The notes under the pieces were generated by a model. It searched no databases. It worked only from the letters and a program-made list of their open reading frames with translations, and was not told the DNA's origin. Of a stretch of DNA of 64,000 nt, positions 17,383-57,187 are shown piece by piece (positions within the stretch are counted from its first letter, which is position 1; each line of letters begins with the position of its first letter). Source of the stretch: Owenia fusiformis (lineage: Eukaryota > Annelida > Polychaeta > Sabellida > Oweniidae); assembly GCA_903813345.2 (NCBI GenBank), contig CAIIXF020000002.1, positions 472,001 to 536,000 on the forward strand, written 5' to 3'. Both the position numbers and the translations under genes were made by a program.

Positions 17383-18422
17383 TTCAAAACATTGTTGTTT
17401 ATCTCGACGATTTCTGCCTAGTTTACCCTACATATAAGGAGTGTCAAGAAGCAAGGGACACATTGATTGGATTGATCAGGTCCCTTGGTCTGAGCATAAA
17501 CTGGTCAAAAGTGGAAGGACCTACACAGGTTCTAACTTTCTTAGGCATAAACATTGATACTATAAAAATGCAACTGACATTGCCAGAGGAAAATCTAAAT
17601 AGCTTGAAAGCATTACTCATCGAATTTTCAAGCAAAAAACGCGCCGCTAGATCCCAGCTTGAATCATTGGCTGGTAAACTTCATTGGGCAACCCAGGTCG
17701 TCAAAGGGGGTAGGCATTTCCTCCAACGGATCCTGGATACCATACGATCACTCAAACGCAGCAAACACAAATACATGCTAGGGACTCAATTCTATAAGGA
17801 CATAGACTGGTGGATTAAGTACATAGACACATTCCATGGAAAATCTTTAATAATGGACAACAATCCAGTTGTGACTGTCGAGCTGGATGCTTGCAATACT
17901 GGAGCAGGATTATACTATGATGGAGATTGGGCATATATAAATTTCCATCGTGATACCCCTTCTCTTAAGGATTACCATATCAATTATAAGGAGATACTCT
18001 CTGCATACTTCTCTGTATTGAGATGGGGGCACACATGGTCAAATAAGAAGGTTCAACTTGCAACCGATTCTTCTGTTGCAATGGCAGTGATCAACTATGG
18101 GAGGTCTCGACATCCTGTTATTATGGATATACTAAGACATATGTTCTGGATATCAGTGACTTACAACTTTGATCTAAGAGCACACCATGTCAAGGGACTA
18201 AATAATGTGATGGCAGATACAATCTCCAGACTTCATGAACCCCATGCCCTCCTATCCTTGGAAGCCTTGTTATACCCTGGCCGCTTCCCTTATTCAGGAA
18301 TGTCTGTTATGGACTTAATACCACACATGAGTTTTAATTCTCTGTTTTCCATTCTGCCGCAGGTCCGCAACTGGCTGAGCTGGAAGAAGAATTGGATAAC
18401 ACAATCGCTACGCTACGCATGA
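17337..18422 (+). CDS. Ngaro-like RT C-terminus plus RNase H
   Basis: The frame opens in flanking sequence; recognisable coding begins near 17383 at NIVVYLDDF, the catalytic block of reverse transcriptase. It continues through FLGINID and the connection region, then an RNase H domain with VELDACNTGAG, NYKEILSAYF, LATDSSVAMAV and a final HVKGLNNVMADTISR. The stop is at 18420-18422. The last 31 bases overlap the start of the recombinase frame, as is common in YR retroelements. The RT fingers and most of the palm are absent, so it cannot be active by itself. Confidence 0.85.
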   Translation: MSYFISIQCGMFNFSFQNIVVYLDDFCLVYPTYKECQEARDTLIGLIRSLGLSINWSKVEGPTQVLTFLGINIDTIKMQLTLPEENLNSLKALLIEFSSKKRAARSQLESLAGKLHWATQVVKGGRHFLQRILDTIRSLKRSKHKYMLGTQFYKDIDWWIKYIDTFHGKSLIMDNNPVVTVELDACNTGAGLYYDGDWAYINFHRDTPSLKDYHINYKEILSAYFSVLRWGHTWSNKKVQLATDSSVAMAVINYGRSRHPVIMDILRHMFWISVTYNFDLRAHHVKGLNNVMADTISRLHEPHALLSLEALLYPGRFPYSGMSVMDLIPHMSFNSLFSILPQVRNWLSWKKNWITQSLRYA

Positions 18423-19344
18423 ATTGCTACACCCCCTCTACCAGATCAACATATGCAGCCCAGCTCCAAAAATATCTTGTATTTTGTAACAATATGGGTT
18501 ACAACCCAGTACCAGTTAATCAATTACACCTGGAACGCTATGTTGCTTCATTAGCTGGGGTCATTACTCCAGCATCAGTGAAACTGTATCTTAATGTTGT
18601 CAGGCTACTCCACTTGGAAAGTGGTTATGCAAACCCATTAAATAACAATTATAGGCTGGACACCATCATTTTGGGTCTCACAAAGACCCTAGGCAGGAAA
18701 CCAATTAGGAAATCTGCTATTACTCCAACTCATTTGCTGGACATTAAGAAGCAACTAAATATGGATGATCCCCTTCATGTGGTTTTCTGGGGTGTCTGTT
18801 TAGTTGCTTTCTATGGCCTGTTTAGGAGATCTAATGTGTTGCCTTCAGAGTTTGACAATAGCAAACATTTGTGCAGGAGAGATGTAACATTTTTTCCCTG
18901 GGGGGTCTTACTTAATGTGAAATGGTCAAAGACTATTCAGTCTGGAGAGAGAATCTTGCAAGTGCCGCTTACTGAGATCAAAGGCCACCCCCTTTGCCCA
19001 GTATCTGCACTACTATCTGCCCTTGCTATTACTTTCCCCTCCAGCCCAGACTACCCCCTCTTACGTTGCCCAGAGGTAAACCTTTTCCCCCCTCCCTGTT
19101 CTCATCTCTCCTGGGCACATGCTTAGCTAAGGCAGGTTATGACCGTACTTGTTTTTCACCTCATTCCTTTAGGAGGGGAGGCGCATCTTGGGCTCTACAA
19201 AGAGGCCTTCCCCCTAATGTCATCCAGATTCTGGGTGACTGGAAGTCAGACGCATATAAGGTTTATCTTGAATTACCTGTAGCTTCAAAAGTAGAGATGG
19301 CAAAATCTTTTTCAACTAACCTACCTTCTACTACTTCTACTTAA
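18392..19344 (+). pseudogene. Ngaro-like tyrosine recombinase, frameshifted
   Basis: The first frame (18392-19126) carries the N-terminal SAM-like region (TPSTRSTYAAQLQKYLVFC) and the first catalytic Arg in AFYGLFRRSN. A single frame change near 19070-19100 moves the reading into the frame that ends at 19342-19344, which supplies HSFRRGGAS (His-x-x-Arg), GDWKSD and the nucleophile region YKVYLE. All catalytic positions are therefore present but in two frames. Phage-integrase-type recombinases use the Tyr to integrate circular cDNA without a target duplication. Confidence 0.85.
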
Positions 19345-20150: not shown

Positions 20151-20243
20151 ATGAAAATCGAAGGAGGGGTTGCCATAGTAACCGGGGGAGCGCGAGGAAT
20201 TGGTAAATCGCTAGTGACGTCTCTACTCAAGCTTGGAGCAAAA
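20151..20243 (+). CDS. 15-PGDH-like exon 1: Rossmann cofactor loop
   Basis: 31 codons, starting MKIEGGVAIVTGGARGIGKS and ending GAK at donor AAA|GTAAGT. It holds the TGxxxGxG glycine motif. The ATG is the first in frame after stops in the preceding sequence and gives the N-terminus usual for this SDR group. Confidence 0.88.
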
Positions 20244-38200: not shown

Positions 38201-41200
38201 TTATTTCACTATATGGTCCACTCAAAATCCTTGGTTCAAAAATTGTGAAAAGGAGTGTTGCAAACTATGTCGTGCGCAATAATATCTCATGTATGAGGGT
38301 CACACACTAATGCCTTGGTCACATTTGCTCCGATCTTCACTACGGCGCCCGGCCGATTGAGTATTTTGTTCAAAATTGAATACAATATTGAGCAAAACAC
38401 TCAATCGGGCGGGCGCCGGCCGATGGATCGGAGCAAATTTGACCCAGGCATTACACAGCTGGTTAGAAATAGTAAGTAAGATACCTTGGTTTAATTGAAT
38501 GGTTCATTAAGTATTTGAAAACACCCATCGAACTACAAACAAACACCTAAAAACTATTACAAAAAGCTGTGTGAAGTCATTCAGTGTATGGTGATGGTAT
38601 GGTCATCTGATCTCCCCCCCCCCCCCCCTGTCCATTAGTGTTATGAAAAATACGTTGTACACATTAGGGATAATTATGCTGTTAAAAGAATACAAACACA
38701 ACATTTTGCCTTTAATGACAGGTATGTAGTGTTGATGTAAACAGTGCGGATGGTGAAGAAACAGTTGAAGACCTGAAGCAAATTTACGGAGACCGTGTGA
38801 TATTTCAAAAATGTGACATCACAAAGGAAAATGAAGTCAGAAGTAAGATATATTATTATCTTTTTGCACTATTTTATACACCATATACACCCAGCACATA
38901 CATTATAAAGTAAATAAAGCTATACATCTACATTATTAAAGGATTTAAGCACTGGACTCAGTGCATTGCATACTTTTCCGGCGTCTTTACAGTATTAACA
39001 TCTCCGATATCTTGTCCTGTAGCACATTCATCTTATCAGTAGAATGAAACTGATTCCATAGAAAATAAAACAAAAAATAAAATATGCATACGTTGGCTTT
39101 CTCCCTAACCTACACTTTTGGAATGAAATTTACTCAAAAATTGCCCTCAAGCACATAGAAACCTCTAGCGTTTCAATACGTTTTTGCGGGAAGTGAATTT
39201 TCACTTTTTGCTCCGTTTGTTGGATTTTTTACCATAAAAATAATGAAAATATCTACAGCATATGATTGGTTTGGTTAAATTTGGTAGTTTTGCCGGACAG
39301 TTTGATGAATTGCGCAGGTCGTAATTATGAACAACATAAAATGACAATGTTTGCATTAATGACCCCTATATAATTGTATATAAGCAATGCAAATCTTCCT
39401 TGTAGATGCACTAAAGGTTGCGAAAGACACATTTGGCGACGTCACAATTATGGTGAATAACGCGGGAATTATTGATGAAACTAATATATCTGGAACTATC
39501 TCAATCAACCTCGTAAGATGATAATAAAAGAATAATACTAGTAAACGTTTAGTGGAAACATAATATGAATATTTTTATATGAGAGAATAGGAAACTATGA
39601 GACACAGCCAGGCCTAGTTGAATTGTTTGCCCATAACCTGCATCAAAAAATGCAGTATTGTTGTCCGGTATATCGCCACAAAGAATGAACATACCATTCC
39701 AAAGTACTGACTTCCCTGATATAGAAAATATTTTTGATTTTTTGATTGCAACATGGGCATATGTCTCTAAAATTAGGTCACACAAGGTTGACTTCTAAAA
39801 ACAACTTCTTGTACTGTATTTATATTTTTAAATATTTTACCACACAACTACATTTCAAGTATGGTATCAATTGATTTTGACGAAAATTTAGTACTTTTGA
39901 AGAATAATGAATTCTCAAAATGCCAAAAAGGTGGTTCCAAAAGAATGCAAACTTCTGCAAAAGTAAAAATCGGCATGGGGCACTGTTTCAGTGTCAATAC
40001 TTTTTAAGTTAGTAACATTGTTTAATTCTTTACAAAAAGTAATTTGACATGTATAAAAGGTACTGGGTGACAAAAATGTTAATTAAATAAATATCTGATG
40101 GTTCAGGAATATGATGGTATCCTCATGTTAAATCAATAGTACATATTCCTATGTTAAGTCAATACATTAAATCCTCAGTTTCTAAGTAGACCCCCCTGTT
40201 ACCGGGAAAATGTAACATAACTCAGTGTAGAGCATATATGTAGGAACACTATGCAGTAGTTGGATTTTGTCGCCGACACCCGGGCAAATCCTTATCTAGA
40301 GCTCCTAGAAAATCAGATAAGGGACTATGCTCATTTGCGTTGTTTTATTGTATAAAAAACATTCTTAACAATTTAGTTATACTTTCGACACATTAATCTC
40401 ATGATTTGAAACATTCATAGGCCACAATATCTAATTTCTTGAAAAGGAGGCCCCGGTTAGATGTACAATGATTGCTCTTGAGTCCATGGGTCGCAACAAT
40501 GGGGGAAACGGAGGTGTTGTGGTATATACCTCTTCAAAAGCCGGTAAGGGTTACTTCAGAAGTAAGTTACATTGCATATATCAAATAGTTCATAAAGAGG
40601 CACAGATGCGTTGTATTGATTGCTGTTCATGGCTCGCAAACACGAAGGGAAAATTGGTGCTATTCTCAAACGTAAAGTGGTCGAAAATTGGAAACTGCAT
40701 ATTCTTAAATACTGATTTTCACGTTTAGAATTAAAATAGTATATTCACACCGGAATAGCCTGACTACGGTAAAGTCAGATACCGTTGTCAAAAATGGCGG
40801 ACATAACCATCGCTTCAACTGGTTGATCACTTGGTCCTCATTTCATGGGATTTCATCGTCGCTAATTCTGTGCATGCAGTAAGCTCTTGTTATAATGTAT
40901 CATATGAAATCCCATTTTCGAACAAATTGGGTCGTGAATTGCCACAATATAGCGTCTTCGATATCTTCAATGACAACGGAATTTGAGTAATTTAGAAAGA
41001 CAACGACATTTGGTAATTACAGTGTCCGTTGTCCCGTATCTCATTTTCGATGATAGAACATTATAAACTATACAATGAGTATTAAGACACTTTGATTGGC
41101 TGTTTTTCCGAAGGAATTTAGTCTAGGTATTAAACATACAATTCATGAAAATCTAATTGAAGCGACCTCTATGTCCGCCATTTGTGACAACGGTATCTGA

Positions 41201-44200
41201 CTTTACCGTTGTCAGGCTAATCCAGGGTGATATTAAAACATTTTGATTATTGGAATTAATGTTCCAGGTATAATACCCATTGGTGGATTACCAGTGTATA
41301 CAGCAGCGAAACACGGACTCGTTGGTTTCGTTCGTAGTATGGCTGTAAGTAGTGAAGTTCTGTTTATATCGATGTAATCAGTACAATCCGTAATTGAAAT
41401 ATTACTAAGTCTAACCCTTATGTCTGCAACCTTTTTTAATAACATTACAGGGTGAACTAATATCAAATGTTCAATAATCTTTATCATTGCAGTTCAATCC
41501 ACAACATATTAAACATATTATTTAACATTATTTAATATAACTAGTTAACAGACTCAGATGCATAAACTATTTGAACTAGTTACATAACATTTAACCATTG
41601 TCCCATATAAGGTATTTGTAATACTCTACCCCATGTTTAATGCACAATAGCTGGTATTCAACTCGTTGTGTTCAACTCGTTGTTGAAACTGTTCTCTCGG
41701 GCCATCAGGTAACTTGTTTGAAGGGCCATCTGGACTACAGTCGAAAGTTGTTGCATTGTTTCATAATGTACCTCTTAGATGATCCGTCATCCTGTTGAAA
41801 TCAGCGAAATCAAGGATTGCCTCAAATTTAGATTATGGAGCTTGGGGCAGCTTTGCTATCTAATTTAACAGATATTTGTGATAGTTTCCTGCACAATATA
41901 AGCTGTGTGACTGGGTGCATTATAAATAAAATAAGAATTTGTCTAAATAGATAAGTTTTATTAACTTAGCATAGAATAATACTCTTTGTTGATTTTCTAG
42001 CCTTCTGCTACCGCACTTACTAGCAGGATCCCTCAAATGTCTATTGTCAAATATCAATTTTCCATGAGTACATTTATCATTTAAATAGGCAACAGCAACG
42101 CCAAAGCATAGCAAATCCCATCGAACAGCCATATGGCTGGCATTTTTACAAACAAAGTATATAGCAAAAATAGCGGCCATTTTTCAAAATGGCAACCTTC
42201 TATCAAAAGTGTCATTAGACAGTGTACCATGCTTATAGTGTTCAAATACCAAATGCTCCATTACTTTTTGTGTTATAGTAAAATACATTAAAATGGCGGC
42301 AATTTTTCAAAATGGCCACCTTCTACAAAAAATGTTATTAGGCAGTGCGCCATGCTAATCACCAAAATCGCTTCAGTACTTTTCGAGTTATAGTAAAAAA
42401 CGTTAAAATGGCGGCCATTATTCAAAATGGCCGCCTTCTACCAAAAGTTTCACTAGATAGTGGGTTTGCCATTCTTATAGTATTCACATACCAAATATGA
42501 ACAAAATCGCTCCAGTACTTTTCGAGTTATAGTAAAATACGTAAAATAGCGAGTAAATGCCGCCATTTTTCAAGATGGCTGCCATGTGCTTCTTTAATAC
42601 CTTCTAGCTTCATTAATGTCCTATATAATTGTTTTACATTTAAAACATATTGTTGAAAATCGGCTTTCGAGCAGAACTTCTACTCCCAAGGTATATGTGT
42701 ACAAAATATGTACAAAATCGGGCCAACGGTATTTGAGTTATTGCCCGGACGGACGGACAGACGGACGGACGTACGAACGTACGGACGGACAGAGGCGTTC
42801 CCTATATCCCTCCGAACTTCATTCGATGGGATAACAAAAAACATATGGATCTTTCATTTGCACATATTTACAGATTTCTGTAATGGTAATTTGTGTGACA
42901 TGTGCTACGACCTATAACAGAAGATGTTTTATGATACATAAAAATATACAATACGTAATTGTTTTCAACTTCAGTTGAGTCCAAGGATAAAAGATTGGGG
43001 TGTACGTTTCAATTGTGTTTGTCCAGCATTGGTAGATACAATAATGATAAGCACTGATCACATAAGAAAAATAATGCATCCTGGTGATTTCGAACCATTA
43101 GTGAAACTTATAGAAACAAAAAGAAAAATGGAAACGATTCTACAGTAAGATTATATTGTATACTAAAACTTCATGTATCATGCCATTTGTTTCAATTGCA
43201 TTACTTCATATTTTAATTCACAAAATGCATCGATACATTTGATTTAATTTGTTGTGGCATTTAAGGACTATATTGAATGTTACACGAACTAAGTCATTAT
43301 GTTTTTCATTATACAACAATACGACTTAGCCTTATGTTCTCAAGACCTTCCCAAATAGCTGATGCGATGATTAAAGGCCCACTCTGCGTATTTTCAATGT
43401 TTTTGGGCTAAATAAAGACTTTTATATGAATTCTATAGAATGTCCAATATATTGATAAGAACCCTATCTTTCATTTGGCACCAACAACAGCCCAAACGAA
43501 CCACATCAAAGCTTACAATAATTAATCAAAAAATATTTTCGATCTGTCAAGCTTTATATATCAAATTTTTATCAATGCCATTGAAAGATGGAGAAACTGT
43601 TTGGACTACATGATACATTCATTTTTATAGAAGTGTCGCCATATTTTAAATCAAAAGTAATTATATTAAAACATGCACTTTGTTAAGCATGTGCATGCAT
43701 GTCTAATGATCTCTGAAGTTCAAATGGTTTTTTCTTTGTGAGTTATATTTTTCTTGGTTCAATATTAAAGCAAATCAAACTTTGTGTCATATTTGAGCGA
43801 GTGTGTGAGTAATATGTTTCAATGATAATTTTTTTCTTCTTCTAAATTAAGTATAGTGTGGCTTTAAGTGGATGTAAGATGATGCGTTGAATGGCGTCGT
43901 TGAAAAATAACCTTTGTTAATCATTATATTGTTTATTTTATAACAATATGACATATACAGCGTGTCCCGAAAGTATGGTGCCCCCCCCCCCTAGGCAGAC
44001 ATATTCCAGTGTCGTCATAGTATGTGTCATATATCATTTTAAAGCTTGTCCTAAGTTACATCGATTTGCCAAGTATCATGGTTTAACTCCCAAATGGGAA
44101 AAAGTTACAGTCATTTTAAAAGTTAGTGTTTTGCCAAAATAAAGTTCAATTTAACACCACATTACTAGTCAATGTGTCCCCTTTGACCGTGTTAACAGCG

Positions 44201-47200
44201 GCAAGTATTTTCAGATATGACCTTAAAAGTCCTTCAAATAGGAGTGTGTAACTTTATAACCCTCTTAAAACCTGTTAAGGGGCTTTAGAAGAGTTTCCTT
44301 AGAGTTTCTACCCTCACCGTTCTCTTTTTCCAACTCAATATCCATCCAATCCGAAGAGAATTGCTGCTGTTAAGATGGCCCGAGAGGACACATTGACTAG
44401 TGATTTGGTGTAAAATTTAACTTAATTTTGACCAAACACTAAATTTTTAAATACCTGTAATTTTTCACATTTGAGAGTTGAACCATGATACTTGGTGAAT
44501 CAATGTAACTTTGGATAAGCTTTAAAATGATATATGACACATACTATGACGACACAGGTATATGTCTGCCTAGGGGGGACCCCATAATTTCGGGACACCC
44601 TGTATATTATAATATTATTTTATATACAATGTGACATGCCATATATGTATTTTGGAGGCCACCTGAAGTAGCTGGTGCAATGATTAAGCTCATATTATTT
44701 TATATACAATATGACATGCCATATATGTATTTTGCAGGCCATCTGAAGTAGCTGGTGCAATGATTAAGCTCATATTATTTTATATACAATATGACATGCC
44801 ATATATGTATTTTGCAGGCCATCTGAAGTAGCTGGTGTAATGTTTAAGCTCATATTATTTTATATACAATGTGACATGCCATATATGTATTTTACAGGCC
44901 ATCTGAAGTAGCTGGTGTAATGTTTAAGCTCATATTATTTTATATACAATGTGACATGCCATATATGTATTTTGCAGGCCATCTGAAGTAGCTGGTGCAA
45001 TGATTAAGCTCATATTATTTTATATACAATGTGACATGCCATATATGTATTTTGCAGGCCATCTGAAGTAGCTGGTGCAATGATTAAGCTCATATTATTT
45101 TATATACAATATGACATGCCATATATGTATTTTGCAGGCCATCTGAAGTAGCTGGTGTAATGTTTAAGCTCATATTATTTTATATACAATGTGACATGCC
45201 ATATATGTATTTTGCAGGCCATCTGAAGTAGCTGGTGCAATGATTAAGCTCATATTATTTTATATACAATGTGACATGCCATACATGTATTTTGCAGGCC
45301 ATCTGAAGTAGCTGGTGCAATGATTAAGCTCATATTATTTTATATACAATGTGACATGCCATATATGTATTTTTCAGGCCACCTGAAGTAGCTGATGCGA
45401 TGATAAAGCTCATATTATTTTATATACAATGTGACATGCCATATATGTATTTTACAGGCCATCTGAAGTAGCTAGTGCAATGATTAAGCTCATATTATTT
45501 TATATACAATGTGACATGCCATATATGTGTGACAGGATGTTTTAGATTTTCAAACCCTACTGTGGAGAGTTATATTTTTATGTATTTCAATTATATTTTC
45601 AAACCCTGCTAGGAGAATAGCTTTGATTTACACACAGTGTGCACATGCAAGGGGATTAACCTTGATTGCATTTACTTTCCAAATCACCAGTGCTAGCTTT
45701 GATTTTGAACTGTAAAGACATGGTAAGAAATTTTCATATATTTTTGTCACTTTTTACCCTTTAGAATATGCCAACATTATGCCAATTGTATTCATTTTAT
45801 TCTCCATAACTTTAGCTCCAATATGATGTAAATATTATTTTGTATTTCAAATACTTTTGAGTAATTTCTTTGTAAAACTTGAACAATGTGTTGGAACATT
45901 TGTCCATAAGGTGATGTTCATTTCATGCACCTGTGCGTTATTCATTTACAATTAAAACCACCATTTATGTCATTTCATATGACTTATCTTGGTACACACG
46001 TTTTACAGGAGACACTGTGTGCGTACTAAAGATGTATGGCTAGCACTCAGAGACTGTATAGCTTATTTTATAAGGTACATTCCACATTTTATTTTATATT
46101 GCTCAATTGTAAACCTTCATGGTACATTTTGCATAAAGTAACTGAATTATATTTATATTTGGTAATTTCAATAGAGAAATGTATGAAGTGCGTCAAGCAC
46201 AGTATAAGGGTTTTCTTGGGAACAGAATAAGGGCCCTTTAAGTCCCATAGCCCTTAGTACTAAGAAGTTTATCATAAAACTGTATGTTTCATTATTGTAT
46301 TTTACCTGCTTTACAAACAGCTATTTGTACATTACTTTTATTTGCAGCTCTGGGGTACAAACTAGGTGCACAGCCTTAAGCATTTGTGGTTTTGGTCTTA
46401 AGTGATTTAGGTAGCTTGAATACAAGATCAGTTAGTGATTTAGGTAGCTTGAGTACAAGATCAGTTAGTGATTTAGGTAGCTTGAGTATTAAGATCAGTT
46501 GAGAGATTTAGCTCATTTGTATAACATTTTGATCATTTGATTGATTATAGGGTTGAATACATTTTAAATACATTTTATATTCTTATTCTGTTAATTCGAT
46601 TTGTAATGTAACCCACGTCCACTCCCCCATGGTTACATTTGGTACTGCGGGTGTTACACTTCATGTTAAGATTTTGTTAGGATAGTGTTATTGATAGGTA
46701 GAATTTTTTTGACCAAATCCACATATATGCTACTGATGGAAGTCGAGTAAATCAAGTAAGTGGTACGATACGATTGAGACATCCAATGGACACTGGTTCT
46801 ACAAAGATGAACAACAAAAGTGTAAATGCAGTCCATTACCACATTGTGACAATAATTAACAACAATTCATAAGAACATTTGAATTTCAACAAGAACATTT
46901 GAATTTCAACAAGAACATTTGAATTTCAACTAGAATATTTGAATTTCAACAGGAACATACAGAAATACAACTGGAACAATCTATGTGAGAAATTCAATTA
47001 GTGACAAATGTAAACAAATGAAATCTCATATAAAACCATAAATCAGCTATTTATAGCTCAATATTTTGAATAGCCAGTCAATATCAGGTGACAATTAATA
47101 GTATTTTGTGAGTGAAAGCAAAAGTTGACTCACACAGTTCAATAAATACATGCAATTATGCATCAGGTCATGAACATGATTAAAATTTAGGGTCAGTATC

Positions 47201-50200
47201 CAGGACAAATAATTTGTTTAGTTCTCAAAGCAGATATTTTGCTTGTTGCCCAGCTCACATATTTGTTCTATACCCTTGTCAGTGTACATTTATATTTTTG
47301 ATTAGTAGCCTGGACATATATTTTATATTTTGTCTACACTTTGTCTACATTTTGTTTCCACGGAACCTAAAGTAAACCAGGACATACATTTTATCTAGTA
47401 CCAGGTTCATATGATTTGTCCAATAGTATTATAGTACACAGGACAATCATTTTGCTCTACTGCCAGCTGTTGCAGAATCTCATACTGCAGTAACACAAAT
47501 GAAATGAATATACAAGATAGCAAAATAACACAGCAAAACACAAAGTCACCAAATCAAGAAACTGAATTGAATCTGAGTGAACCAAAGAAGAACAACCTTC
47601 CTGTCAACACAAAAGTGATGGAACAAATCGACAACATCATGAAAAACTTCCAAGGAACTGAAGAAGAATCTACAAAGGCGAAGGAAATGTTTCTAACATA
47701 CCATGACATCTTTGGAACCGATGAAACCGATCTAGGATGTACTGACTTATTGCAGCACAGTATTCCAACACCTGACGGCCTAGTAATAAATGAACCGTAC
47801 CGAAGAATACCACCTGCCATTTTCGAAGAAGTAAAGGAGCACATAGACAAACTGATAGAAAAGAAAGTCATTAGACCCAGCAACAGTTCTTTTGCCAGTC
47901 CAGTGGTGATCGTTAGGAAGAAGAATAAATCTATACGCCTATGTGTGGACTACAGACGCTTGAATCAACACACCACTAGAGATTCTTTTCCACTTCCAAG
48001 AATCCAAGAGAGCATGGATTCCCTTCTAAACTCGAAGATATTCAGCTGCATCGACCTCCAAAGTGCTTATTTGCAAGTGAAAGTCATCGATGAAGATATC
48101 CACAAGACTGCATTTACTACTCCTCTAGGACTATACGAATATATGAGAATGCCATTTGGACTATCTAATGCGCCTTCAACATACCAACGACTCATGACGA
48201 TTGCATTTCGTGAAGAGCTTTTCAAAACTGTTCTCTGTTATTTAGATGATCTACTCGTATACTCCTCTTCAATCAGTGAAAACATTGACAGAATTGAAAC
48301 AGTTTTCAAGATACTAAAGAAACACAATCTCAAATTGGAACTACGAAAATGCCATTTCTTCAAAACAGAAGTAATCTACTTGGGACACAAAGTTTCTGGA
48401 GAAGGAATTCAACCAGACCCATCCAAGATAGATCAGATAGTCAACTGGAAGGAACCAAAGACTTTAAAAGACTTGAGAAAATTCCTAGGAACTACAGGAT
48501 ATCATCGACGTTTCATCAAATCCTATGCTTCTGTAGCTCAACCCCTACATGATCTTGTGAAGAAGGTTCTCAACAAATCCAGCAAAAAGACAGCAAACAT
48601 AGAGAAACTTTGGACTTCAGAATGTAAAGCTGCTATGGAGATGATCAAGGAAAGACTAACAACAGCACCATGTCTAGGTTTTGCAGATTATTCCAAACCA
48701 TTTATACTCGAAACCGATGCTTCCAATACGGGCCTTGGAGCCGAACTTTTCCAACTTCAAGATGGCAGAATGAGAGTAATAGGTTATGGCAGTCGATCAC
48801 TCCGAGGTGCAGAGAGAAATATGAAAAACTACTCATCCAAGAAACTAGAACTTCTCGCACTTAAATGGGCCATAACAGAGAAATTTCGAGACTTCTTACT
48901 AGGAACCAAGTTCACTGTATTCACAGACAATAATCCCTTAACGTACATCATGCACAAGAAGAGACTACCTGCTTTGGAACAGCGATGGATATCTGATCTG
49001 GCGAGTTTTGATTTCGACATCAAATACAAACCTGGTAAAACCAACACAGCTGCAGACTGCCTATCTAGACTAGAACATGACTCGGAAGAAGATGATAGAG
49101 AAGAAGATTTCGAAGTTAGTGCAATGCAGATACTTGCCAAACAGTGTGACATCACATACTTACCTGAGATGGAAGAAATAAAAGAAGCCAAACAAAAAGA
49201 AGTTGCAGCACTACAAATAGAAGCAGAAATATCACAAGATGTAGCATCTTCATTTCTACCAACAATAACGAAGGATGGTTACAGAGAATTACAGCAAAAT
49301 GACAAGGATATCGCTCTCATAACTGAGATGGTAAAAGTTAACTACAAACCTACTTCAAAAGCAATGAAAAAACTCACAAAAAGCCAAAGAAAATTGGTTA
49401 AACAGTTGAAAAACCTTGTAATGATAGATGAAATTCTGTACAGAAAATCACACTTTAATGACACTTCTGTATTCCAAGCTGTTGTACCAGATGTTCTGAA
49501 GGAAGAAGTTCTTAAGTCACTACATGACTTCACAGGACACCAAGGAGTAGAACGAACAGAGAAGCTCATCAGACAAAGATTTTATTGGACAGAACTTCAT
49601 CAAGATGTCACAGAATATATCACAACCTGTAGCAGATGTCTGTTCGGAAAGATGCCTTACCAGAAAGTTATTACACCTCTAGGCAGACTTACAGCAAATA
49701 GACCATTAGATCTTGTCTTCATTGACTTTACTCTTCTTGAAAAAGCCTCCAATGGAATGGAAAATGTACTTGTGATCACAGACGCATTCACAAAGTTCAC
49801 AATCACAGAACCCACCAGAGATCAAAAAGCTGAGACTGTAGCTAAAGTACTAGTGAAGTCATTTATCCAGATATTTGGCATCCCACACAGAATACATAGC
49901 GACCAAGGAAGAAACTTCGAGAGTGAGGTCATCAAGTGTCTTTGTAAGATGTATAATATAGAAAAATCAAGAACAACGCCATACCACCCCTCAGGAAACG
50001 GCCAATGCGAAAGATTTAATAGGACGCTTCACAACCTTCTGATATCTCTTGAACAAGACAAGAAGAGAAGATGGCCTGATTATATCAAAGAACTGACCTA
50101 CTGTTATAACACAACACCACACAGTTCTACGGGATACCATCCCTTCTTTCTGATGTTTGGTCGAGAACCGAGACTTCCCATATCCATTCAGCTAGGTGTT

Positions 50201-52850
50201 GACGATGTTGATACTTGTGACAAGGATAAAGAAAAAGAAGAACAGGTTCAGAAAGAGAACAAAAGTTGTATAGTAGAACATGAAAGAATATTGAAAGAAG
50301 CACACACAAAAGAAGTTCCACAGAAAGTAAGAGGAATAAAACAAAACAAACATGAAGATGTGCCTGAAACTGAGACTATCAGGAGATCAAAAAGATTAGC
50401 AGCTCAGAATGCCATGATGTAGACATGATGTCAGAAAAATTGAGATATATATTTTATCGCGTTTAGTGATTTGCGATAAGCGTTCTGTAATAAATGTTAT
50501 TTTCTTAACTATTGTTCTATTTTAATAATTCAAATTACTGTTATATGTTACTGTTATTTATACTATAAAAGAAACACAATACATATATAAAAAGTTACTT
50601 TGTTAACAGAACATAATTTTATTGACTACCATTTTAAGGTAGTGGATGTTAATTAGGGGAGGATAATCCTTCATAATGGTATTTCATAATGTTATTTTCT
50701 ATGTTCCACGTGTGTGTGACATTTTGTTGTTAGAATTTAATGTATTTTATAATTCCTGTGGTAGCAAGAGCAAGGATAATTTGGGACAAATTATGACGAG
50801 TCCGCGTGTGTGTGACAGGATGTTTTAGATTTTCAAACCCTACTGTGGAGAGTTATATTTTTATGTATTTCAATTATATTTTCAAACCCTGCTAGGAGAA
50901 TAGCTTTGATTTACACACAGTGTGCACATGCAAGGGGATTAACCTTGATTGCATTTACTTTCCAAATCACCAGTGCTAGCCTTGATTTTGAACTGTAAAG
51001 ACATGGTAAGAAATTTTCATATATTTTTGTCACTTTTTACCCTTTAGAATATGCCAACATTATGCCAATTGTATTCATTTTATTCTCCATAACTTTAGCT
51101 CCAATTTGATGTAAATATTATTTTGTATTTCAAATACTTTTGAGTAATTTCTTTGTAAAACTTGAACAATGTGTTGGAACATTTGTCCATAAGGTGATGT
51201 TCATTTCATGCACCTGTGCGTTATTCATTTACAATTAAAACCACCATTTATGTCATTTCATATGACTTATCTTGGTACACACGTTTTACAGGAGACACTG
51301 TGTGCGTACTAAAGATGTATGGCTAGCACTCAGAGACTGTATAGCTTATTTTATAAGGTACATTCCACATTTTATTTTATATTGCTCAATTGTAAACCTT
51401 CATGGTACATTTTGCATAAAGTAACTGAATTATATTTATATTTGGTAATTTCAATAGAGAAATGTATGTAGTGCGTCAAGCACAGTATAAGGGTTTTCTT
51501 GGGAACAGAATAAGGGCCCTTTAAGTCCCATAGCCCTTAGTACTAAGAAGTTTATCATAAAACTGTATGTTTCATTATTGTATTTTACCTGCTTTACAAA
51601 CAGCTATTTGTACATTACTTTTATTTGCAGCTCTGGGGTACAAACTAGGTGCACAGCCTTAAGCATTTGTGGTTTTGGTCTTAAGTGATTTAGGTAGCTT
51701 GAATACAAGATCAGTTAGTGATTTAGGTAGCTTGAGTACAAGATCAGTTAGTGATTTAGGTAGCTTGAGTATTAAGATCAGTTGAGAGATTTAGCTCATT
51801 TGTATAACATTTTGATCATTTGATTGATTATAGGGTTGAATACATTTTAAATACATTTTATATTCTTATTCTGTTAATTCGATTTGTAATGTAACCAACG
51901 TCCACTCCCCCATATGTATTTTGAAGGCCACCTGAAGTAGCTGATGCGATGATTAAGCTCATATTATTTTATATACAATGTGACATGCCATATATGTATT
52001 TTACAGGCCATCTGAAGTAGCTGGTGCAATGATTAAGCTCATATTATTTTAAATACAATGTGACATGCCATATATGTATTTTACAGGCCATCTGAAGTAG
52101 CTGGTGCAATGATTAAGCTCATATTATTTTATATACAATGTGACATGCCATATATGTATTTTGAAGGCCACCTGAAGTAGCTGATGCGATGATTAAGCTC
52201 ATATTATTTTATATACAATGTGACATGCCATATATGTATTTTACAGGCCATCTGAAGTAGCTGGTGCAATGATTAAGCTCATATTATTTTATATACAATG
52301 TGACATGCCATATATGTATTTTACAGGCCACCTGAAGTAGCTGGTGCAATGATTAAGCTCATATTATTTTATATACAATGTGACATGCCATATATGTATT
52401 TTGCAGGCCACCTGAAGTAGCTGATGCGATGATAAAGCTCATATTATTTTATATACAATGTGACATGCCATATATGTATTTTACAGGCCATCTGAAGTAG
52501 ATGGTGCAATGATTAAGCTCATATTATTTTATATACAATGTGACATGCCATATATGTATTTTACAGGCCATCTGAAGTAGCTGGTGCAATGATTAAGCTC
52601 ATATTATTTTATATACAATGTGACATGCCATATATGTATTTTGCAGGCCACCTGAAGTAGCTGATGCAATGAGTAAGCTCATATTATTTTATATACAATG
52701 TGACATGCCATATATGTATTTTGCAGGCCACCTGAAGTAGCTGATGCGATGATAAAGCTCATAGAAGATGACGAATTGAATGGAGTATCGTTGTTAGTTA
52801 TGCCATGGTCACATAGGCTCCGATCCATCGGCCGGCGCCCGGCCGATTGA
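20151..52850 (+). CDS. 15-hydroxyprostaglandin dehydrogenase-like short-chain dehydrogenase (SDR), seven exons
   Basis: Exons: 20151-20243, 38722-38842, 39406-39512, 40447-40543, 41268-41344, 42975-43144, 52727-52850. Each has AG/GT borders and phases 0,1,0,1,0,2 that chain without a break into 262 residues; human HPGD has 266. Classical SDR motifs are all present: TGGARGIG for the cofactor, Asp in VCSVDVN ending strand beta-2 (NAD preference), CDIT, NNAG, the Ser in YTSSKAG, and YTAAK as the Tyr-Lys catalytic pair. After PPEVADAMIKLIEDDELNG the C-terminus is encoded by a MITE inserted in exon 7. HPGD oxidises the 15-hydroxyl of prostaglandins in the cytosol; substrate in this animal is not predictable. 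Introns 1 and 6 are swollen by transposons. Polyadenylation signal AATAAA at 53025-53030. Confidence 0.88.
20244..21249. other. Start of intron 1 of the 15-PGDH-like gene, nothing recognised
   Basis: AT-rich, with a C-run at 20540-20550. No coding or element ends seen. Confidence 0.5.
21250..21500. repeat. Inverted copy of the 3741-4480 repeat family
   Basis: Opens with GACGGCGGTTGGTGGTTGGT and continues with GACTTCATTTGCTTCCAAAA and GATTTGACCTTCACTGACCT, the reverse complement order of the block at 3741-4480. It lies in intron 1. Confidence 0.7.
21530..21658. repeat. Perfect 59-bp inverted repeat with 11-bp loop
   Basis: The left arm 21530-21588 and right arm 21600-21658 are exact reverse complements over 59 bases by eye. 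The arm begins CAAAATATTTTTTTCTTC and ends CAGGACGTTTCGAA. Transcribed as part of intron 1 it would form a long perfect RNA stem. No terminal features or target duplication were identified. Confidence 0.9.
22034..22147. repeat. Hairpin-forming inverted repeat
   Basis: The left arm (GGTTCAGGATATTGGAATTA start) and right arm (ending ATCCTAATATCCTGAACC) are about 45 bp each with a few mismatches, around a GC-rich loop containing CGGGACCTGCGGCCCTCGGG. It resembles the hairpin at 2869-2955 in design but not in sequence. Confidence 0.7.
22972..23527. pseudogene. CR1-like LINE reverse transcriptase fragment with internal inversion
   Basis: Two blocks of the same RT domain lie in opposite orientation. 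On the plus strand 22972-23251 reads EAGVPQGSLLGPLVFLFYIN then LFADDTSLM, the QG and FADD motifs. On the minus strand 23527-23252 reads the upstream part, with FLDISKALDKVWHRGL. In the intact relative at 57188-60109 the two blocks are adjacent and collinear, so the downstream block has been inverted here. The family is the same as that relative. Confidence 0.8.
23515..26771 (+). pseudogene. LINE (endonuclease-RT type), 5'-truncated, inside the CR1-like relic
   Basis: The plus-strand frame begins inside the endonuclease (VILCGDFNCHLSSKL; CLDFIML; NVSNHSPIF). It continues through a full RT domain (NYRGLTLTTVISK, FLDNVRAYDYLW, GCGQGRICSS, VADDTTVLSS). A TAA stop at 25744-25746 and a later frame change near 25950 separate the C-terminal region 25970-26626, which carries a Cys-x2-Cys-x9-His-x4-Cys finger (CLACAKTTNDIVKHFILEC). 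The 3' end shows AATAAAGAA and an ACCAT repeat tail. Both interruptions and the missing start make it inactive. The clade is unresolved; the finger and tail resemble several APE-type LINE groups. Confidence 0.82.
26772..27335 (-). pseudogene. CR1-like LINE ORF2 relic, endonuclease deleted
   Basis: The minus frame from 27315 starts MSIDICQYRAAIGYWYLITR, clearly the N-terminus of the ORF2 at 57188. After IIGGIHP it jumps to a region equivalent to about residue 430 of that protein (SLKIKLSDNQTSRKLYFNIL), so the NPGP motif and the whole endonuclease are deleted. The frame stops at 26812-26814, but similarity runs on to about 26772, where the plus-strand LINE begins. Together with 22972-23527 this looks like one CR1-like copy that received another LINE. 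Confidence 0.8.
27336..28022. other. Intron 1 sequence, nothing recognised
   Basis: AT-rich; no element ends or coding motifs found. Confidence 0.45.
28023..28871. mobile_element. 849-bp foldback element with ~415-bp arms and CATAT target duplication
   Basis: Starts CACCCTATGCAGACAGAGCC and ends with its inverse. The arms meet around 28440-28455, where GGTGCGGAGC and GCTCCGCACC flank a short centre. Divergence between arms is a few percent. CATAT occurs directly on both sides (28018-28022 and 28872-28876). No protein is encoded; the 28676-28867 open frame is simply one arm. It is non-autonomous, superfamily not assigned. Confidence 0.88.
28877..29329. other. Intron 1 sequence, nothing recognised
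   Basis: AT-rich spacer between the foldback element and the next tandem repeat. Confidence 0.45.
29330..30045. repeat. ~150-bp tandem repeat with AAAATGGCCGCC motif
   Basis: Units start near 29341, 29490 and 29640, with further units from about 29800. Each contains GATTTTAGGACGGAAAATCC, AAAATGGCCGCCTTAAC and CCCTCAAACGGTTTGGCT. The block ends with GACGCCCGCCCGCCCAACCG, a C-rich run comparable to the GACGGACGGAC end of the repeat block at 42110-42835. Confidence 0.85.
30106..30478 (-). repeat. 3' terminal segment of the R2/NeSL-type LINE (copy A)
   Basis: 373 bp that recur at 37772-38138 with a few substitutions and a small gap (CCGCTAC present here only). It covers the C-terminal codons and 3' UTR of the element. 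The copies share a left boundary at TAATGTTGAATTAAACGC, which marks the 3' terminus of the LINE. Confidence 0.88.
30455..31417 (-). pseudogene. R2/NeSL-type LINE CCHC knuckle and restriction-like endonuclease
   Basis: A 320-codon frame. It contains CSLCKDQPASLRHILSSC (Cys-x2-Cys-x8-His-x4-Cys) and the endonuclease core RPDIVIRSND...VELTVPWEDR. It ends early at a TGA after VGCRGFA; the duplicate at 37772-38138 has GGA at that codon and reads on through GKSVTWMLKPLG, so the stop is a mutation of this copy. Confidence 0.82.
31520..31855 (-). pseudogene. R2/NeSL-type LINE, end of RT and thumb
   Basis: After the insertion the minus strand reads SLRPVGVISNNKFTMQGETI, then KCLGKWFDHSL and GIIPRLNWPFTMYDF, the thumb region of the R2-type RT. 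It joins the text at 34775 without large loss. Confidence 0.75.
32885..33180. repeat. Degenerate TTGCTTGGTTGG simple repeat
   Basis: Imperfect four- and eight-base periodic text (TTGCTTGC, TTGGTTGG, TTGCTTGG) over about 300 bp. No coding meaning. Confidence 0.75.
33200..33490. mobile_element. 291-bp MITE with CAGGGGCGTAG-like ends and ATATC duplication
   Basis: The left end CATAGGCGTAGCCAAGGAGG and right end AGCTGACTACGCCCCTG are inverted copies with poly-G/poly-C tracts just inside. ATATC flanks both sides (33195-33199, 33491-33495). A fragment of the same family (CCCCGACGGAAAGCTGGCTA) lies near 60720. Confidence 0.75.
34768..35089 (-). pseudogene. R2/NeSL-type LINE, middle part of RT
   Basis: Starting at the mariner junction it reads MRFSTRHITSDWQRLERGIM then GCSVSVILFVAAMNIL. 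In a shifted frame it continues to AFMDDITAM, the second catalytic motif, and FKPKKSRSL. It then stops in the 2.9-kb insertion. Confidence 0.75.
35090..36134. mobile_element. Tc1/mariner-like element remnant inserted in the LINE RT
   Basis: TA is present on both sides (35088-35089, 36135-36136). The right end read inward is CAGGGTGATCATTAAGTTCT; the left has CAGTTCTGGGAATTTATCTG, the same text lacking 13 bases. Both ends continue with an ATTTTTCAACCA-like segment. A plus-strand stretch near 35510-35580 (HTTLEELGFTQVITAPYS) resembles the region before the last catalytic acid of mariner-type transposases, but the frame is short and degraded. Confidence 0.65.
36137..36671 (-). pseudogene. R2/NeSL-type LINE, first part of RT
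   Basis: Two frames: 36671-36474 has SGSAPGPSGLTYKIYKNCP, the start of the RT domain; 36421 to about 36137 has LSVVWLDLAKAYPSVPHQL, the RT catalytic Asp block (usually AYGSVPH). The reading then meets the mariner-like element at 36134 and resumes at 35089. Confidence 0.75.
36844..37490 (-). pseudogene. R2/NeSL-type LINE N-terminal region with zinc finger
   Basis: The frame reads a Cys-x2-Cys...His-x4-His...Cys finger (CESCGRIFKNWHGVRIHQGK) at about 37490-37425, then MNTPRKTQDNPDPVNNHNV and a long Lys/Arg-rich, probably helical segment. Such fingers bind target DNA in R2-type elements. The sequence upstream is frame-shifted at a C-run near 37566-37577. Confidence 0.7.
37772..38138 (-). mobile_element. 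5'-truncated second R2/NeSL-type LINE, head-to-tail with the first
   Basis: Only the last 367 bp of the element. It lies immediately upstream (in element orientation) of the longer copy, with no unrelated DNA visible between. The frame GCRGFAGKSVTWMLKPLG is intact here. Such head-to-tail stacking is expected when a LINE prefers a fixed target or inserts next to its own end. Confidence 0.78.
38311..38450. mobile_element. 140-bp Harbinger-like MITE, intron 1 copy
   Basis: Near-palindromic element from TGCCTTGGTCACATTTGCTC to GACCCAGGCA, ending next to TTA. It is about 92% identical by eye, in the opposite orientation, to the copy in exon 7 (52801-52940) and has exactly the same length. It lies about 270 bp upstream of exon 2. 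Confidence 0.82.
38722..38842 (+). CDS. 15-PGDH-like exon 2: beta-2 acidic residue and CDIT
   Basis: Acceptor GACAG, donor A|GTAAGA. Reads VCSVDVNSADGEETVEDLK and ends at CDITKENEVR plus one base. The Asp after beta-2 marks NAD rather than NADP use. Contained in frame with exon 1 in phase 0. Confidence 0.88.
39406..39512 (+). CDS. 15-PGDH-like exon 3: NNAG motif
   Basis: Acceptor CTTGTAG, donor CTC|GTAAGA. It completes a split Asn codon and reads ALKVAKDTFGDVTIMVNNAG, then IIDETNISGTISINL. The NNAG motif stabilises the central sheet and helps catalysis in SDRs. Confidence 0.88.
39513..40446. other. Intron 3 of the 15-PGDH-like gene, nothing recognised
   Basis: AT-rich; the short frame 39549-39785 on the minus strand has no recognisable content. 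Confidence 0.5.
40447..40543 (+). CDS. 15-PGDH-like exon 4: catalytic Ser
   Basis: Reads EAPVRCTMIALESMGRNNGG, then NGGVVVYTSSKAG (last Gly split by the intron). Fourteen residues separate INL of exon 3 from GRNN, the same count as in vertebrate HPGD, which supports the chosen acceptor at 40445-40446 even though its pyrimidine tract is weak. Donor G|GTAAGG. Confidence 0.82.
40745..41230. mobile_element. MITE in intron 4 with ~55-bp inverted ends
   Basis: The left arm CCGGAATAGCCTGACTACGG and the right arm (inverted CCTGGATTAGCCTGACAACG) continue alike through AAAGTCAGATACCGTTGTCA and AAATGGCGGACAT. Total length is about 485 bp. No clear target duplication. The inner end of each arm carries an ATGGCGGAC motif similar to those in the AAAATGGCGGC repeats. 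Confidence 0.75.
41268..41344 (+). CDS. 15-PGDH-like exon 5: catalytic Tyr and Lys
   Basis: Acceptor GTTCCAG, donor GCT|GTAAGT. Reads IIPIGGLPVYTAAKHGLVGF then VRSMA. YTAAK supplies the proton-donor Tyr and the Lys that lowers its pKa. Confidence 0.88.
41345..42109. other. Intron 5 (first part), nothing recognised
   Basis: No coding potential or element ends identified in this AT-rich stretch. Confidence 0.45.
42110..42835 (-). repeat. AAAATGGCGGC-type repeat block (copy 3), inverted
   Basis: Three to four units of about 125 bp with AAAATGGCGGCCATTTTTCA-like palindromes, then ATCGGCTTTCGAGCAGAACT and a run GACGGACGGACAGACGGACG, ending CATTCGATGGGATAAC. It is related to the blocks at 8555-8780 and 16195-16760. 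It ends about 140 bp before exon 6. Confidence 0.82.
42975..43144 (+). CDS. 15-PGDH-like exon 6: substrate-side region
   Basis: Acceptor AACTTCAG, donor CA|GTAAGA. Reads LSPRIKDWGVRFNCVCPALV, with the CPA-Val/Thr motif that follows strand beta-6 in SDRs, then a helical region ending KMETIL and two bases of a Gln codon. Those two bases need an exon beginning with G, which exon 7 and most array copies provide. Confidence 0.86.
43345..43913 (+). pseudogene. Relic duplicate of 15-PGDH-like last exon (exon 7'), split by a MITE
   Basis: After an acceptor-like TTCTCAAG, 43345-43374 reads, in the phase required by exon 6, PSQIADAMIK. The text resumes after the MITE at 43868 with W M, a TAA stop in place of the Glu codon, then DDALNGVVEK and a second stop near 43911. 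This matches PPEVADAMIKLIEDDELNGV of the working exon 7. DDALNG is in fact closer to vertebrate HPGD than DDELNG is. It is an old duplicate of the last exon, inactivated by the nonsense codon and by the insertion. Confidence 0.78.
43375..43863. mobile_element. TTAA-flanked (piggyBac-type) MITE within exon 7'
   Basis: TTAA at 43371-43374 and 43864-43867 flanks ends AGGCCCACTCTGCG and (inverted) AGCCACACTATACT. Removing the element and one TTAA rejoins the exon relic in frame through the Lys codon. TTAA duplications are diagnostic of piggyBac-type insertion. About 489 bp, non-coding. Confidence 0.75.
43958..44602. mobile_element. 645-bp Tc1/mariner-type MITE with long inverted repeats
   Basis: TA flanks (43956-43957, 44603-44604) and ends CAGCGTGTCCCGAAAGTATG / inverted CAGGGTGTCCCGAAATTATG. 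The arms extend about 230 bp with moderate divergence. It sits at the left edge of the 80-bp array: the sequences on both sides (TTTATAACAATATGACATA and TTTTATATACAATGTGACAT) are array-like. Confidence 0.82.
44605..45527 (+). repeat. Left half of the 80-bp exon-7 acceptor array, 11 copies
   Basis: Strict 80-bp period. Copies begin (base after AG) at 44658, 44738, 44818, 44898, 44978, 45058, 45138, 45218, 45298, 45378 and 45458. Each unit is TATATGTATTTTGCAG or a variant (TTACAG, TTTCAG, GGAG in the first), then 37 nt equal to the start of exon 7 through CTCATA, then TTATTTTATATACAATGTGA. The exon part reads PSEVAGAMIKLI in the correct phase. Variants recur every third unit. The array is cut at 45527 by the gypsy element. 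Confidence 0.92.
45528..46629 (+). repeat. 5' LTR of the gypsy-type element
   Basis: 1102 bp. Contains three tandem copies of a ~30-bp unit (GTGATTTAGGTAGCTTGA-) near 46400-46500. Differs from the 3' LTR at about four positions noticed by eye (for example CTAGCTTTG/CTAGCCTTG, CAATATGATG/CAATTTGATG). Confidence 0.92.
46860..46975 (+). repeat. 20-bp tandem repeat in the gypsy leader
   Basis: About four copies of AAGAACATTTGAATTTCAAC, the last ones degenerate, between the 5' LTR and the pol frame. It occupies the place where gag would be expected. Confidence 0.85.
47504..50422 (+). CDS. Gypsy-type Pol: reverse transcriptase, RNase H, integrase
   Basis: A 972-residue intact frame. RT spans about residues 75-275 with LCVDYRRLN, FSCIDLQSAY, MPFGLSNAP and YLDDLLVYSS (near 246). 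RNase H follows with ETDASNTGLGAEL (near 402) and a closing KPGKTNTAADCLSR. Integrase has the HHCC finger (HDFTGHQGVE...CSRC, near 672) and a D,D35E core: FIDFTLL, HSDQGRNFES and GNGQCERFNR, with exactly 35 residues between the second Asp and the Glu. The C-terminus is charged and ends RRSKRLAAQ. No protease motif (DTG/DSG) precedes RT. The intact frame suggests that enzymatic functions may be retained, with Gag having to come from another copy. Confidence 0.92.
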   Translation: MNIQDSKITQQNTKSPNQETELNLSEPKKNNLPVNTKVMEQIDNIMKNFQGTEEESTKAKEMFLTYHDIFGTDETDLGCTDLLQHSIPTPDGLVINEPYRRIPPAIFEEVKEHIDKLIEKKVIRPSNSSFASPVVIVRKKNKSIRLCVDYRRLNQHTTRDSFPLPRIQESMDSLLNSKIFSCIDLQSAYLQVKVIDEDIHKTAFTTPLGLYEYMRMPFGLSNAPSTYQRLMTIAFREELFKTVLCYLDDLLVYSSSISENIDRIETVFKILKKHNLKLELRKCHFFKTEVIYLGHKVSGEGIQPDPSKIDQIVNWKEPKTLKDLRKFLGTTGYHRRFIKSYASVAQPLHDLVKKVLNKSSKKTANIEKLWTSECKAAMEMIKERLTTAPCLGFADYSKPFILETDASNTGLGAELFQLQDGRMRVIGYGSRSLRGAERNMKNYSSKKLELLALKWAITEKFRDFLLGTKFTVFTDNNPLTYIMHKKRLPALEQRWISDLASFDFDIKYKPGKTNTAADCLSRLEHDSEEDDREEDFEVSAMQILAKQCDITYLPEMEEIKEAKQKEVAALQIEAEISQDVASSFLPTITKDGYRELQQNDKDIALITEMVKVNYKPTSKAMKKLTKSQRKLVKQLKNLVMIDEILYRKSHFNDTSVFQAVVPDVLKEEVLKSLHDFTGHQGVERTEKLIRQRFYWTELHQDVTEYITTCSRCLFGKMPYQKVITPLGRLTANRPLDLVFIDFTLLEKASNGMENVLVITDAFTKFTITEPTRDQKAETVAKVLVKSFIQIFGIPHRIHSDQGRNFESEVIKCLCKMYNIEKSRTTPYHPSGNGQCERFNRTLHNLLISLEQDKKRRWPDYIKELTYCYNTTPHSSTGYHPFFLMFGREPRLPISIQLGVDDVDTCDKDKEKEEQVQKENKSCIVEHERILKEAHTKEVPQKVRGIKQNKHEDVPETETIRRSKRLAAQNAMM
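50811..51912 (+). repeat. 3' LTR of the gypsy-type element
   Basis: 1102 bp, the same length as the 5' LTR. It ends CCCCCA at 51912, followed by the TATG duplication and then array sequence (TATTTTGAAGG). Confidence 0.92.
51913..52726 (+). repeat. Right half of the 80-bp exon-7 acceptor array
   Basis: Continues the 80-bp period to the real exon 7. Copies begin at 51927, 52007, 52087, 52167, 52247, 52327, 52407, 52487, 52567 and 52647; the next, at 52727, is the real last exon. Types alternate as A-B-B: A is CCACCTGAAGTAGCTGATGC, B is CCATCTGAAGTAGCTGGTGC, giving a 240-bp higher-order unit. The real exon is an A type. Confidence 0.92.
52727..52850 (+). CDS. 15-PGDH-like exon 7: last exon with MITE-derived C-terminus
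   Basis: Acceptor TTTTGCAG. Reads PPEVADAMIKLIEDDELNGV then SLLV. From 52800 the frame enters a 140-bp MITE and reads MPWSHRLRSIGRRPAD before a TGA at 52848-52850. If the MITE and one TTA copy are removed, the frame runs from 52800 to 52944 and gives 14 other codons ending at TAA 52985-52987, close to the usual HPGD tail length. The current tail is basic and unrelated to the family. The catalytic core is intact; whether the changed tail affects stability or dimerisation is unknown. Confidence 0.82.
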
Positions 52851-56095: not shown

Positions 56096-57187
56096 TTGAA
56101 CCACTGATTACTTTCATTTAAGACCTATATTTACAATGACAGGTCCCCAAGACTACAGATGTAGTAAATAGTACACATTTTTGTTCACATTTTAATCTGC
56201 TTAGTACATTCAACATAAGGTAGACTGCTTACTGAGTTATTCGATTGTTCTTCTTTGCTCCAGATCAATCGTGAAAAATTGTTTTACGGTTTTAACACCT
56301 AGACTGCAGTAAACTCTAACTTATGAATACAACTCTCCATGACTGCATAATGCAATTACTATACACTATAGTGATTATTCAATATCACTGAACACTTGAA
56401 TGAATATATTTAAATACTACTTAGTAACCATCATTTGCCTCAGACCATAAGTAAAGTGCTCTAATTCTCAACACCTACAAAACTCTCTAATTGAGGAGTT
56501 TGCAAACTTATTCTGAATGAAAAAACATCTCCATAGTGAATGTACATACTGGATTAGCATACCGTATCTACTTACTTGTAAAACTCCTTTTGAGGAGCAC
56601 TCCATGGGTGACATCTATCTGTATACTGAGAGTTAGAATATTACTTTTTTCTGTACTTACATACCTACTTTGGCTGCTTCCTTAGTTGCTATAGTAATAG
56701 TCAATAACATTGTTCCTTTAGATATCTCCATTGTATGTTTTGTTTTTTGTTGTTTTTTAATCCAAAATGTGGGTTAAACATATAAGAGGTCCTTCAAGGT
56801 TATTGATCCATGATTCATACTGTACAATGACTTGAAATGGGAAAGGCACTTACTTGTCTTAGTGTACATATTACATATTTTACAGTTTCACCCTTACTTA
56901 ATCAATGAGACTCAACCACTTTTATCTCTGTAACAGCATTCCATGTATATTAACCATATTGCATAAATGATTAACAAATGTATATACATGTCATACTTGT
57001 ATATTATATTATTATTCACAACATGTCTCAATCTGAAAGTCGTAAAATTTGAGTTAGAAAGGTATAGAGTGTCTCTGGTGCATGTTTGTTCTTTACAATC
57101 ACTTTATTCATTAAATCCCCATGATCCCTCATGTCTTTTGATAGATTCTCTTGTCTGTGTTCCCATTCCCAACTATTTTGAACCACC
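56096..57187 (+). other. Spacer between LINE ORF1 and ORF2
   Basis: 1.09 kb of AT-rich sequence without a recognised frame. It is long for an inter-ORF spacer. ORF2 starts in a good context (CCACCATGA). Confidence 0.6.

Follow-up and report, generated by a model that had tools for sequence, protein, structure and literature searches.

Gene structure and predicted product

The 64-kb window of the Owenia fusiformis genome (the whole stretch analysed; the assembly comprises 498 Mb in 525 contigs) carries on its forward strand a 15-PGDH-like gene with seven exons. Exons 1 to 5 lie at positions 20151-20243, 38722-38842, 39406-39512, 40447-40543 and 41268-41344, exon 6 (42975-43144) ends in CA followed by the donor GTAAGA, and exon 7 runs from 52727 to its stop at 52850. 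This copy of exon 7 is referred to below as the live exon; its first 34 nt belong to the repeat unit described in the next section. The reading frame stays open and in phase through the seven exons, and every internal border is GT/AG. The product of 262 amino acids is a short-chain dehydrogenase (PF00106, 6.4e-45), and 15-PGDH chains occupy the first six rows of the list of PDB matches, the best of them (8.2e-52) covering residues 1-245 of 262. The alignment with 15-PGDH continues across the exon 6/7 junction, from ILQ into PPEVADAMIKLIEDDELNG, and since it is unbroken there, the joining of exon 6 to 52727 is the one that makes the enzyme. The gene model of the initial annotation, 15-PGDH-like with exon 7 as the last exon, is thus correct, the GT/AG borders, the phase and the PDB match being in agreement.

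Inspection by eye found TGGARGIG, NNAG and YTAAK, which we take to be the characteristic motifs of the SDR family, intact in the product. In a comparison with the paralogue L003 that covers exons 2-6 and 71 nt at the start of exon 7, dN/dS is 0.34 (dS 0.368, dN 0.125), a ratio that shows constraint, although one pairwise value cannot exclude a recent loss of function.

Other features of the window include frames at 17289-19344 resembling what is presumably a DIRS-type element (reverse transcriptase/RNase H followed by a tyrosine-recombinase-like frame), and a frame of 975 amino acids at 57182-60109, which we take to be of the LINE type, with an N-terminal GIHPNPGP presumably similar to a 2A peptide. 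An open frame on the minus strand (5221-5751) contains about five 27-bp coding repeats (NNPTGPAVV). A search of the 64-kb window against Rfam gave no match at the gathering score.

A tandem array across the intron 6/exon 7 border

Tandem Repeats Finder detects a period-80 repeat at 44612-45528 (11.5 copies, 96% match) and a second period-80 block at 51912-52763 (10.6 copies, 95% match). When the units are placed in register by the exon start, 22 units of 80 bp are obtained, 21 of them upstream and the last comprising the start of the live exon at 52727, which confirms the unit length and the copy number originally proposed. Within each unit, 46 nt come from the end of intron 6 and 34 nt from the beginning of exon 7. 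The exon part (CTC-ATA-GAAG) and the unit start (ATA-TTATTTT) have the 3-nt ATA in common, and the earlier division into 37 nt of exon and 43 nt of intron describes the same unit, the ATA at the junction being counted on either side.

The distal block (44612-45527, forward strand) comprises 11 units, with exon starts from 44658 to 45458, and the left part of unit 12. In the proximal block (51913-52726, forward strand), unit 12 is completed (exon start 51927) and followed by units 13-21; the block ends with the intron part of the live unit, so that the exon starts from 51927 to 52727 belong to 11 units, the last of which is live. The 46 nt directly before the live exon (52681-52726) are homologous to the intron end of the paralogues. 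The array is not the single uninterrupted stretch that had been described, as 6.4 kb between the two blocks (45528-51912) is an LTR retrotransposon located in unit 12.

When unit 12, which is split by the retroelement, is set aside, the intact units upstream show 0-7 differences from the live unit over their 80 sites. The unit at 52407 is identical to the live unit at 80 of 80 sites, and that at 45378 has one difference. Two exon variants, D-type and G-type, are interleaved across the array; together with the identity of 52407 to the live unit, this indicates that the array behaves in a concerted manner. The D-type occurs at every third unit of the proximal block (51927, 52167, 52407 and 52647), and its spacing over 51927-52727 looks like that of a duplicated 240-bp higher-order unit.

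Exon-boundary repeats of amphioxus Adh3 and globins have been published under the name 'mirage' (PMC3087553). The present array has the corresponding anatomy. Its 22 tandem units span an intron-exon border, the homologous sequence being single-copy in the paralogues, and the true boundary lies at the array edge, where only unit 52727 runs on into the remainder of exon 7. Five close paralogues, L001-L005, lie on this contig, and the 10 kb compared from each contains one copy of the unit, as a contiguous intron end and exon start.

Mobile elements and a dead copy of exon 7

The retrotransposon (45528-51912) lies in the gene's orientation, with direct LTRs of 1102 bp at 45528-46629 and 50811-51912 which differ at 4 positions and have TG...CA ends. 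It is flanked by the 4-bp target-site duplication TATG, and the domains for reverse transcriptase, RNase H and integrase, found in separate pieces, follow in this order; the element is tentatively classed as Ty3-like, BEL being the alternative. The insertion point falls in the intron part of unit 12. Because the element sits inside a unit, the units were contiguous before its arrival, which the high identity of the LTRs indicates to be recent.

Upstream of the array lies a dead copy of exon 7. Its first part (43345-43376, forward strand) keeps the acceptor AG, and the stretch 43235-43374 is colinear with the intron 6 end and exon 7 start of L003. A relic of the remainder (43864-43924, forward strand) matches the exon 7 remainder of a gene in the cluster at C2:1.39-1.44 Mb, with an alignment score of 54 against a maximum of 33 in 300 shuffles; aligned with L003, the second half of the dead exon gives a weak score of 53 against a shuffle maximum of 51.5. 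The two parts are separated by an insertion of about 490 bp (43373-43863), which is flanked by TTAA and has a weak terminal inverted repeat only. Directly before the array, between the dead exon and the units, there is also an inverted-repeat element (43953-44607). Compared with the array units, the sequence at 43345 has diverged strongly, and other insertions lie between it and the array. The gene now relies on the exon 7 at the far end of the array, whichever of the two copies was in use first.

A MITE-like inverted repeat, with approximate ends at 52801 and 52942, lies within the coding sequence of the live exon itself; the six paralogous loci L001-L006 have no such insertion in exon 7. The live reading enters this insertion and reaches a stop 16 codons past ...SLLV, so that the C-terminus is unlike that of the paralogues. 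Similar elements are found around 38308-38453 in the window and, in L002-L005, ahead of exon 7.

The arrangement of dead exon, array and live exon admits a tentative and rather improbable proposal, namely that exon-boundary minisatellites are common enough in this genome to provide genes with usable substitutes for splice sites and exon starts. One copy of exon 7 would have been killed by an insertion, and the gene would live on through another copy, which lies 9.4 kb further downstream and closes the 22-unit array. If this were true, mirages would let genes survive transposon hits and shift their exon borders.

Another improbable account is that the gene is turning into a pseudogene, with the array simply as debris inside it. 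The MITE-like element within the coding sequence of exon 7 is compatible with a decaying gene, which counts against an inert repeat in a working one, and the retroelement in intron 6 and the dead exon 7 upstream point in the same direction. Against this stand the seven open exons, in phase and with canonical internal borders, the SDR motifs judged intact and the dN/dS ratio, with the reservation made above for a single pairwise value. We therefore consider decay of the gene unlikely.

Splice acceptors and predicted readings of the units

The initial annotation stated that nearly every copy keeps AG at the acceptor; in fact all 22 units do (GCAG in 10, ACAG in 8, GAAG in 2, and GGAG and TCAG in one each). 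Positions -20 to +4 are identical in nine units, namely eight copies and the live one. Universal retention of AG could hint at constraint, yet the units are just a few percent diverged, and a poor base stands at position -3 in 3 of the 21 copies.

For the scoring of acceptor strength, 65 acceptors were located in the gene family; 64 of them have AG, and the 47 distinct ones, with the array excluded, gave the matrix. The 47 family acceptors score from 5.2 to 16.5 with a median of 10.2, and the live acceptor at 52727, with 7.21, falls below this median, the family sites being favoured by their own matrix. Comparable scores of 6.59-7.88 are obtained for 18 of the 21 copies, including 45378, which is slightly higher than the live site. 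Most copies would thus be acceptable acceptors, in line with the ladder that had been described, and the three others are weaker: 44658 (GGAG) scores 0.4, 51927 (GAAG) 4.4 and 52167 (GAAG) 4.2. As the live site is no stronger than the copies, acceptor strength alone does not mark 52727.

From every one of the 21 upstream acceptors the reading reaches a stop within about 31 codons. The earlier expectation that it would end at the TAG of the next unit holds for 19 of them, which finish with ...GHLK before that TAG, and fails for 45458, where the reading enters the retroelement, and for 52007, where a TAA comes earlier. A poly(A) signal AATAAA is located at 53025, downstream of the live exon, while ATTAAA occurs at 45951 in the 5' LTR, about 490 bp behind the last distal copy.

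Border copies in related and unrelated genes

Duplicated exon borders are also present in other members of the dehydrogenase family. Exon 4 with its acceptor is duplicated in three related genes of two other clusters, in one case as three 110-bp units, and exon 6 with its acceptor in one related gene. The end of exon 5 is copied in all five close paralogues, which are mutually non-independent; these copies pass the donor border in four of the five, and in L005 the match stops 7 nt short of it. In total, a local same-strand copy was found at 10 of 73 exon matches of the family, a count from which the array copies of the window and eight places judged to be copies (one of them also failing the E-value limit) were excluded.

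The multi-exon SNF transporters (PF00209) served as the comparison family, with 65 exons tested among the 107 matches listed; these came from 31 stretches chosen by place, not randomly. Two SNF matches in the first 11 stretches, each crossing several stops, were excluded. Matches to P450 were also obtained in the genome, as were many Hox-type homeobox matches on a single strand over about 0.5 Mb (C1:17970454-18468341). The Hox genes retrieved include a Lox5 carrying KLTGP and a further two whose tails are UbdA-like, presumably spiralian or protostome marks, and the erythrocruorin linker model (Eryth_link_C), presumably an annelid mark, exceeds its cut-off in 3 places; these markers point to an annelid and speak against amphioxus as the source. 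A search for mitochondrial COX1 gave no match, and the model for mollusc haemocyanin had none either, in the controls as in the genome, which makes it uninformative.

A local same-strand copy was present at 3 of 42 SNF exons in the first set and 4 of 23 in the second, or 7 of 65 together; the flanks of the second set, about 1 kb versus 1.5 kb, can only lower the count. According to the profile-match coordinates, six of the seven copies cross the exon end, and five are clear by eye: L030 (two exons), L041 and L050 have partial tandem copies of few units each on the donor side, and L031 has copies on the acceptor side. L040 is doubtful, crossing the end of the match by just 12-15 bases of a short-period repeat, and L036, with an internal 27-bp match, was not counted as a border copy.

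The largest of these, L031 (C5:204000-210400, minus strand), has a structure of the kind found in the window. Before its SNF-transporter exon, at 3444-5223 in reverse-complement coordinates, there are 28 matches, two of which are incomplete, to a 61-bp unit composed of an intron end and an exon start. The copy closest to its live border matches that border without a difference over 60 bp. The acceptor AG is kept in 21 of the 28 (CAG in 13, AAG in 7 and GAG in one, counted by eye), as expected without constraint.

Among random 161-bp windows from the first 11 loci, assessed by the same rule, 50 of 293 had a local copy, or 35 of 260 without L031. Tandem repeats with a period of at least 20 make up 6.4% of the DNA examined, a figure that includes the array reported here and that of L031. 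The rate at exons is lower than that of random windows, not significantly so (Fisher P 0.12 for 3/42 versus 50/293, 0.19 without L031 and 0.26 for 7/65 versus 50/293), and the notion that exons are rarer targets than random DNA was rejected on these values. Exons not being favoured over random DNA, there is no sign of targeting to exon borders, which look like the by-catch of a general minisatellite process.

These comparisons bear on the suggestion that the array is a regulatory ladder or decoy, in which competition for the spliceosome among the copies would reduce or adjust the output of full-length enzyme to a level set by their number. The array does lie in the sense strand of an open gene, 18 of its 21 upstream copies resemble the live acceptor in score, and because the stops would lie in a terminal exon, the resulting transcripts might escape nonsense-mediated decay. 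We nevertheless regard such a role as quite improbable, since the five close paralogues have a single copy, similar repeats occur at the exons of an unrelated gene family, for which a common regulation is not plausible, and the amphioxus study suggests that mirages leave splicing undisturbed (PMC3087553). The buffer or decoy function originally put forward finds no evidence in these sequences, either in the paralogues or in the frequency of copies at exons (3/42 versus 50/293). Nor is there support for the earlier view of the array as a singular, very unusual device, as amphioxus mirages are published and the same genome has others in related and in transporter genes.

Proposed origin and use of the array

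The history proposed here starts from the observed anatomy and order of the units, their homology to the paralogues, the retrotransposon insertion and the recurrence of border copies in other genes. We consider it very probable that the array is a mostly inert mirage, a minisatellite spanning the intron 6/exon 7 border, with splicing to 52727. It may have begun as a short tandem duplication of 46 nt of intron and 34 nt of exon with the 3-nt ATA overlap at the junction, which slippage or unequal exchange, the mechanisms that we infer, would have expanded to 22 contiguous units, most likely in a neutral manner. The retrotransposon would then have inserted in unit 12.

As only the last unit precedes the remainder of the exon, only 52727 would yield an enzyme with a conserved end, and both the protein and, by analogy, the amphioxus precedent point to it as the site that the spliceosome probably chooses. 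The terminal exon may be defined by the downstream poly(A) signal at 53025, with none close behind most copies, and the upstream acceptors would mostly be skipped, neither a donor nor a poly(A) site close behind them defining an exon. Occasional use of an upstream copy would add about 31 codons or fewer before a stop, so that the copies may be at most low-level decoys. With at least 22 similar acceptors, of which presumably one is used, the gene offers a natural test of terminal-exon choice by the spliceosome.

The interleaving of two exon types could also suggest a reservoir of exon cassettes, in which the live exon would have its first 11 codons rewritten (P/S, D/G) by gene conversion with the copies, so that alleles of the enzyme arise; units 52407 and 45378 share the live bases at exon positions 5 and 28, where the paralogues shown differ. 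We find this very improbable, as ordinary duplication inside the array gives the same pattern. That assembly error expanded or rearranged a few copies is hardly credible: tandem arrays are error-prone and several units are mutually identical, but the remaining units differ from one another, one of them contains an LTR element with its target-site duplication, and the same kind of array is present elsewhere in the assembly.

Comparison with known systems

In the amphioxus study (PMC3087553), mirages are described at both types of exon border, and one gene has 6 units in one haplotype and 3 in another. Judging from the Adh3 data and from RT-PCR on globins, mirages seem to leave regular splicing undisturbed there, although cryptic use of the copies is considered possible. 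The annelid repeats resemble these mirages in that the unit spans an exon border, that both 3' and 5' borders are affected, that many units retain the splice signal and that the units seem to be homogenised. They differ in the host, which is an annelid and not a cephalochordate, in copy number (22 units here and 28 matches in L031, compared with 3 and 6 in two BflGb6 alleles), and in the retroelement inside the array and the second, dead exon copy upstream (PMC3087553).

Segmentally duplicated human genes have internal tandem repeats at exon-intron boundaries (PMC2812944). Like the present case, they belong to genes of recent duplication and are minisatellites that take in exon borders, whereas their units average 30 bp in about four copies, and alternative splicing or new introns are reported, so that an effect of such repeats on splicing is possible. 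Intron gain by tandem genomic duplication is the subject of PMC4974935 and PMC3443670; there, as here, tandem duplication would supply splice signals, but in the annelid gene no new intron is seen and an existing one has been lengthened.

Among the open-access articles listed by the searches, none reported exon-boundary minisatellites in annelids or other spiralians. Their recurrence in two gene families suggests a broader process, which annotation pipelines may misread. Exon-boundary minisatellites, described among the articles listed for amphioxus and, in shorter form, for human duplicated genes, are present in two gene families of this annelid genome, in two cases as long arrays.
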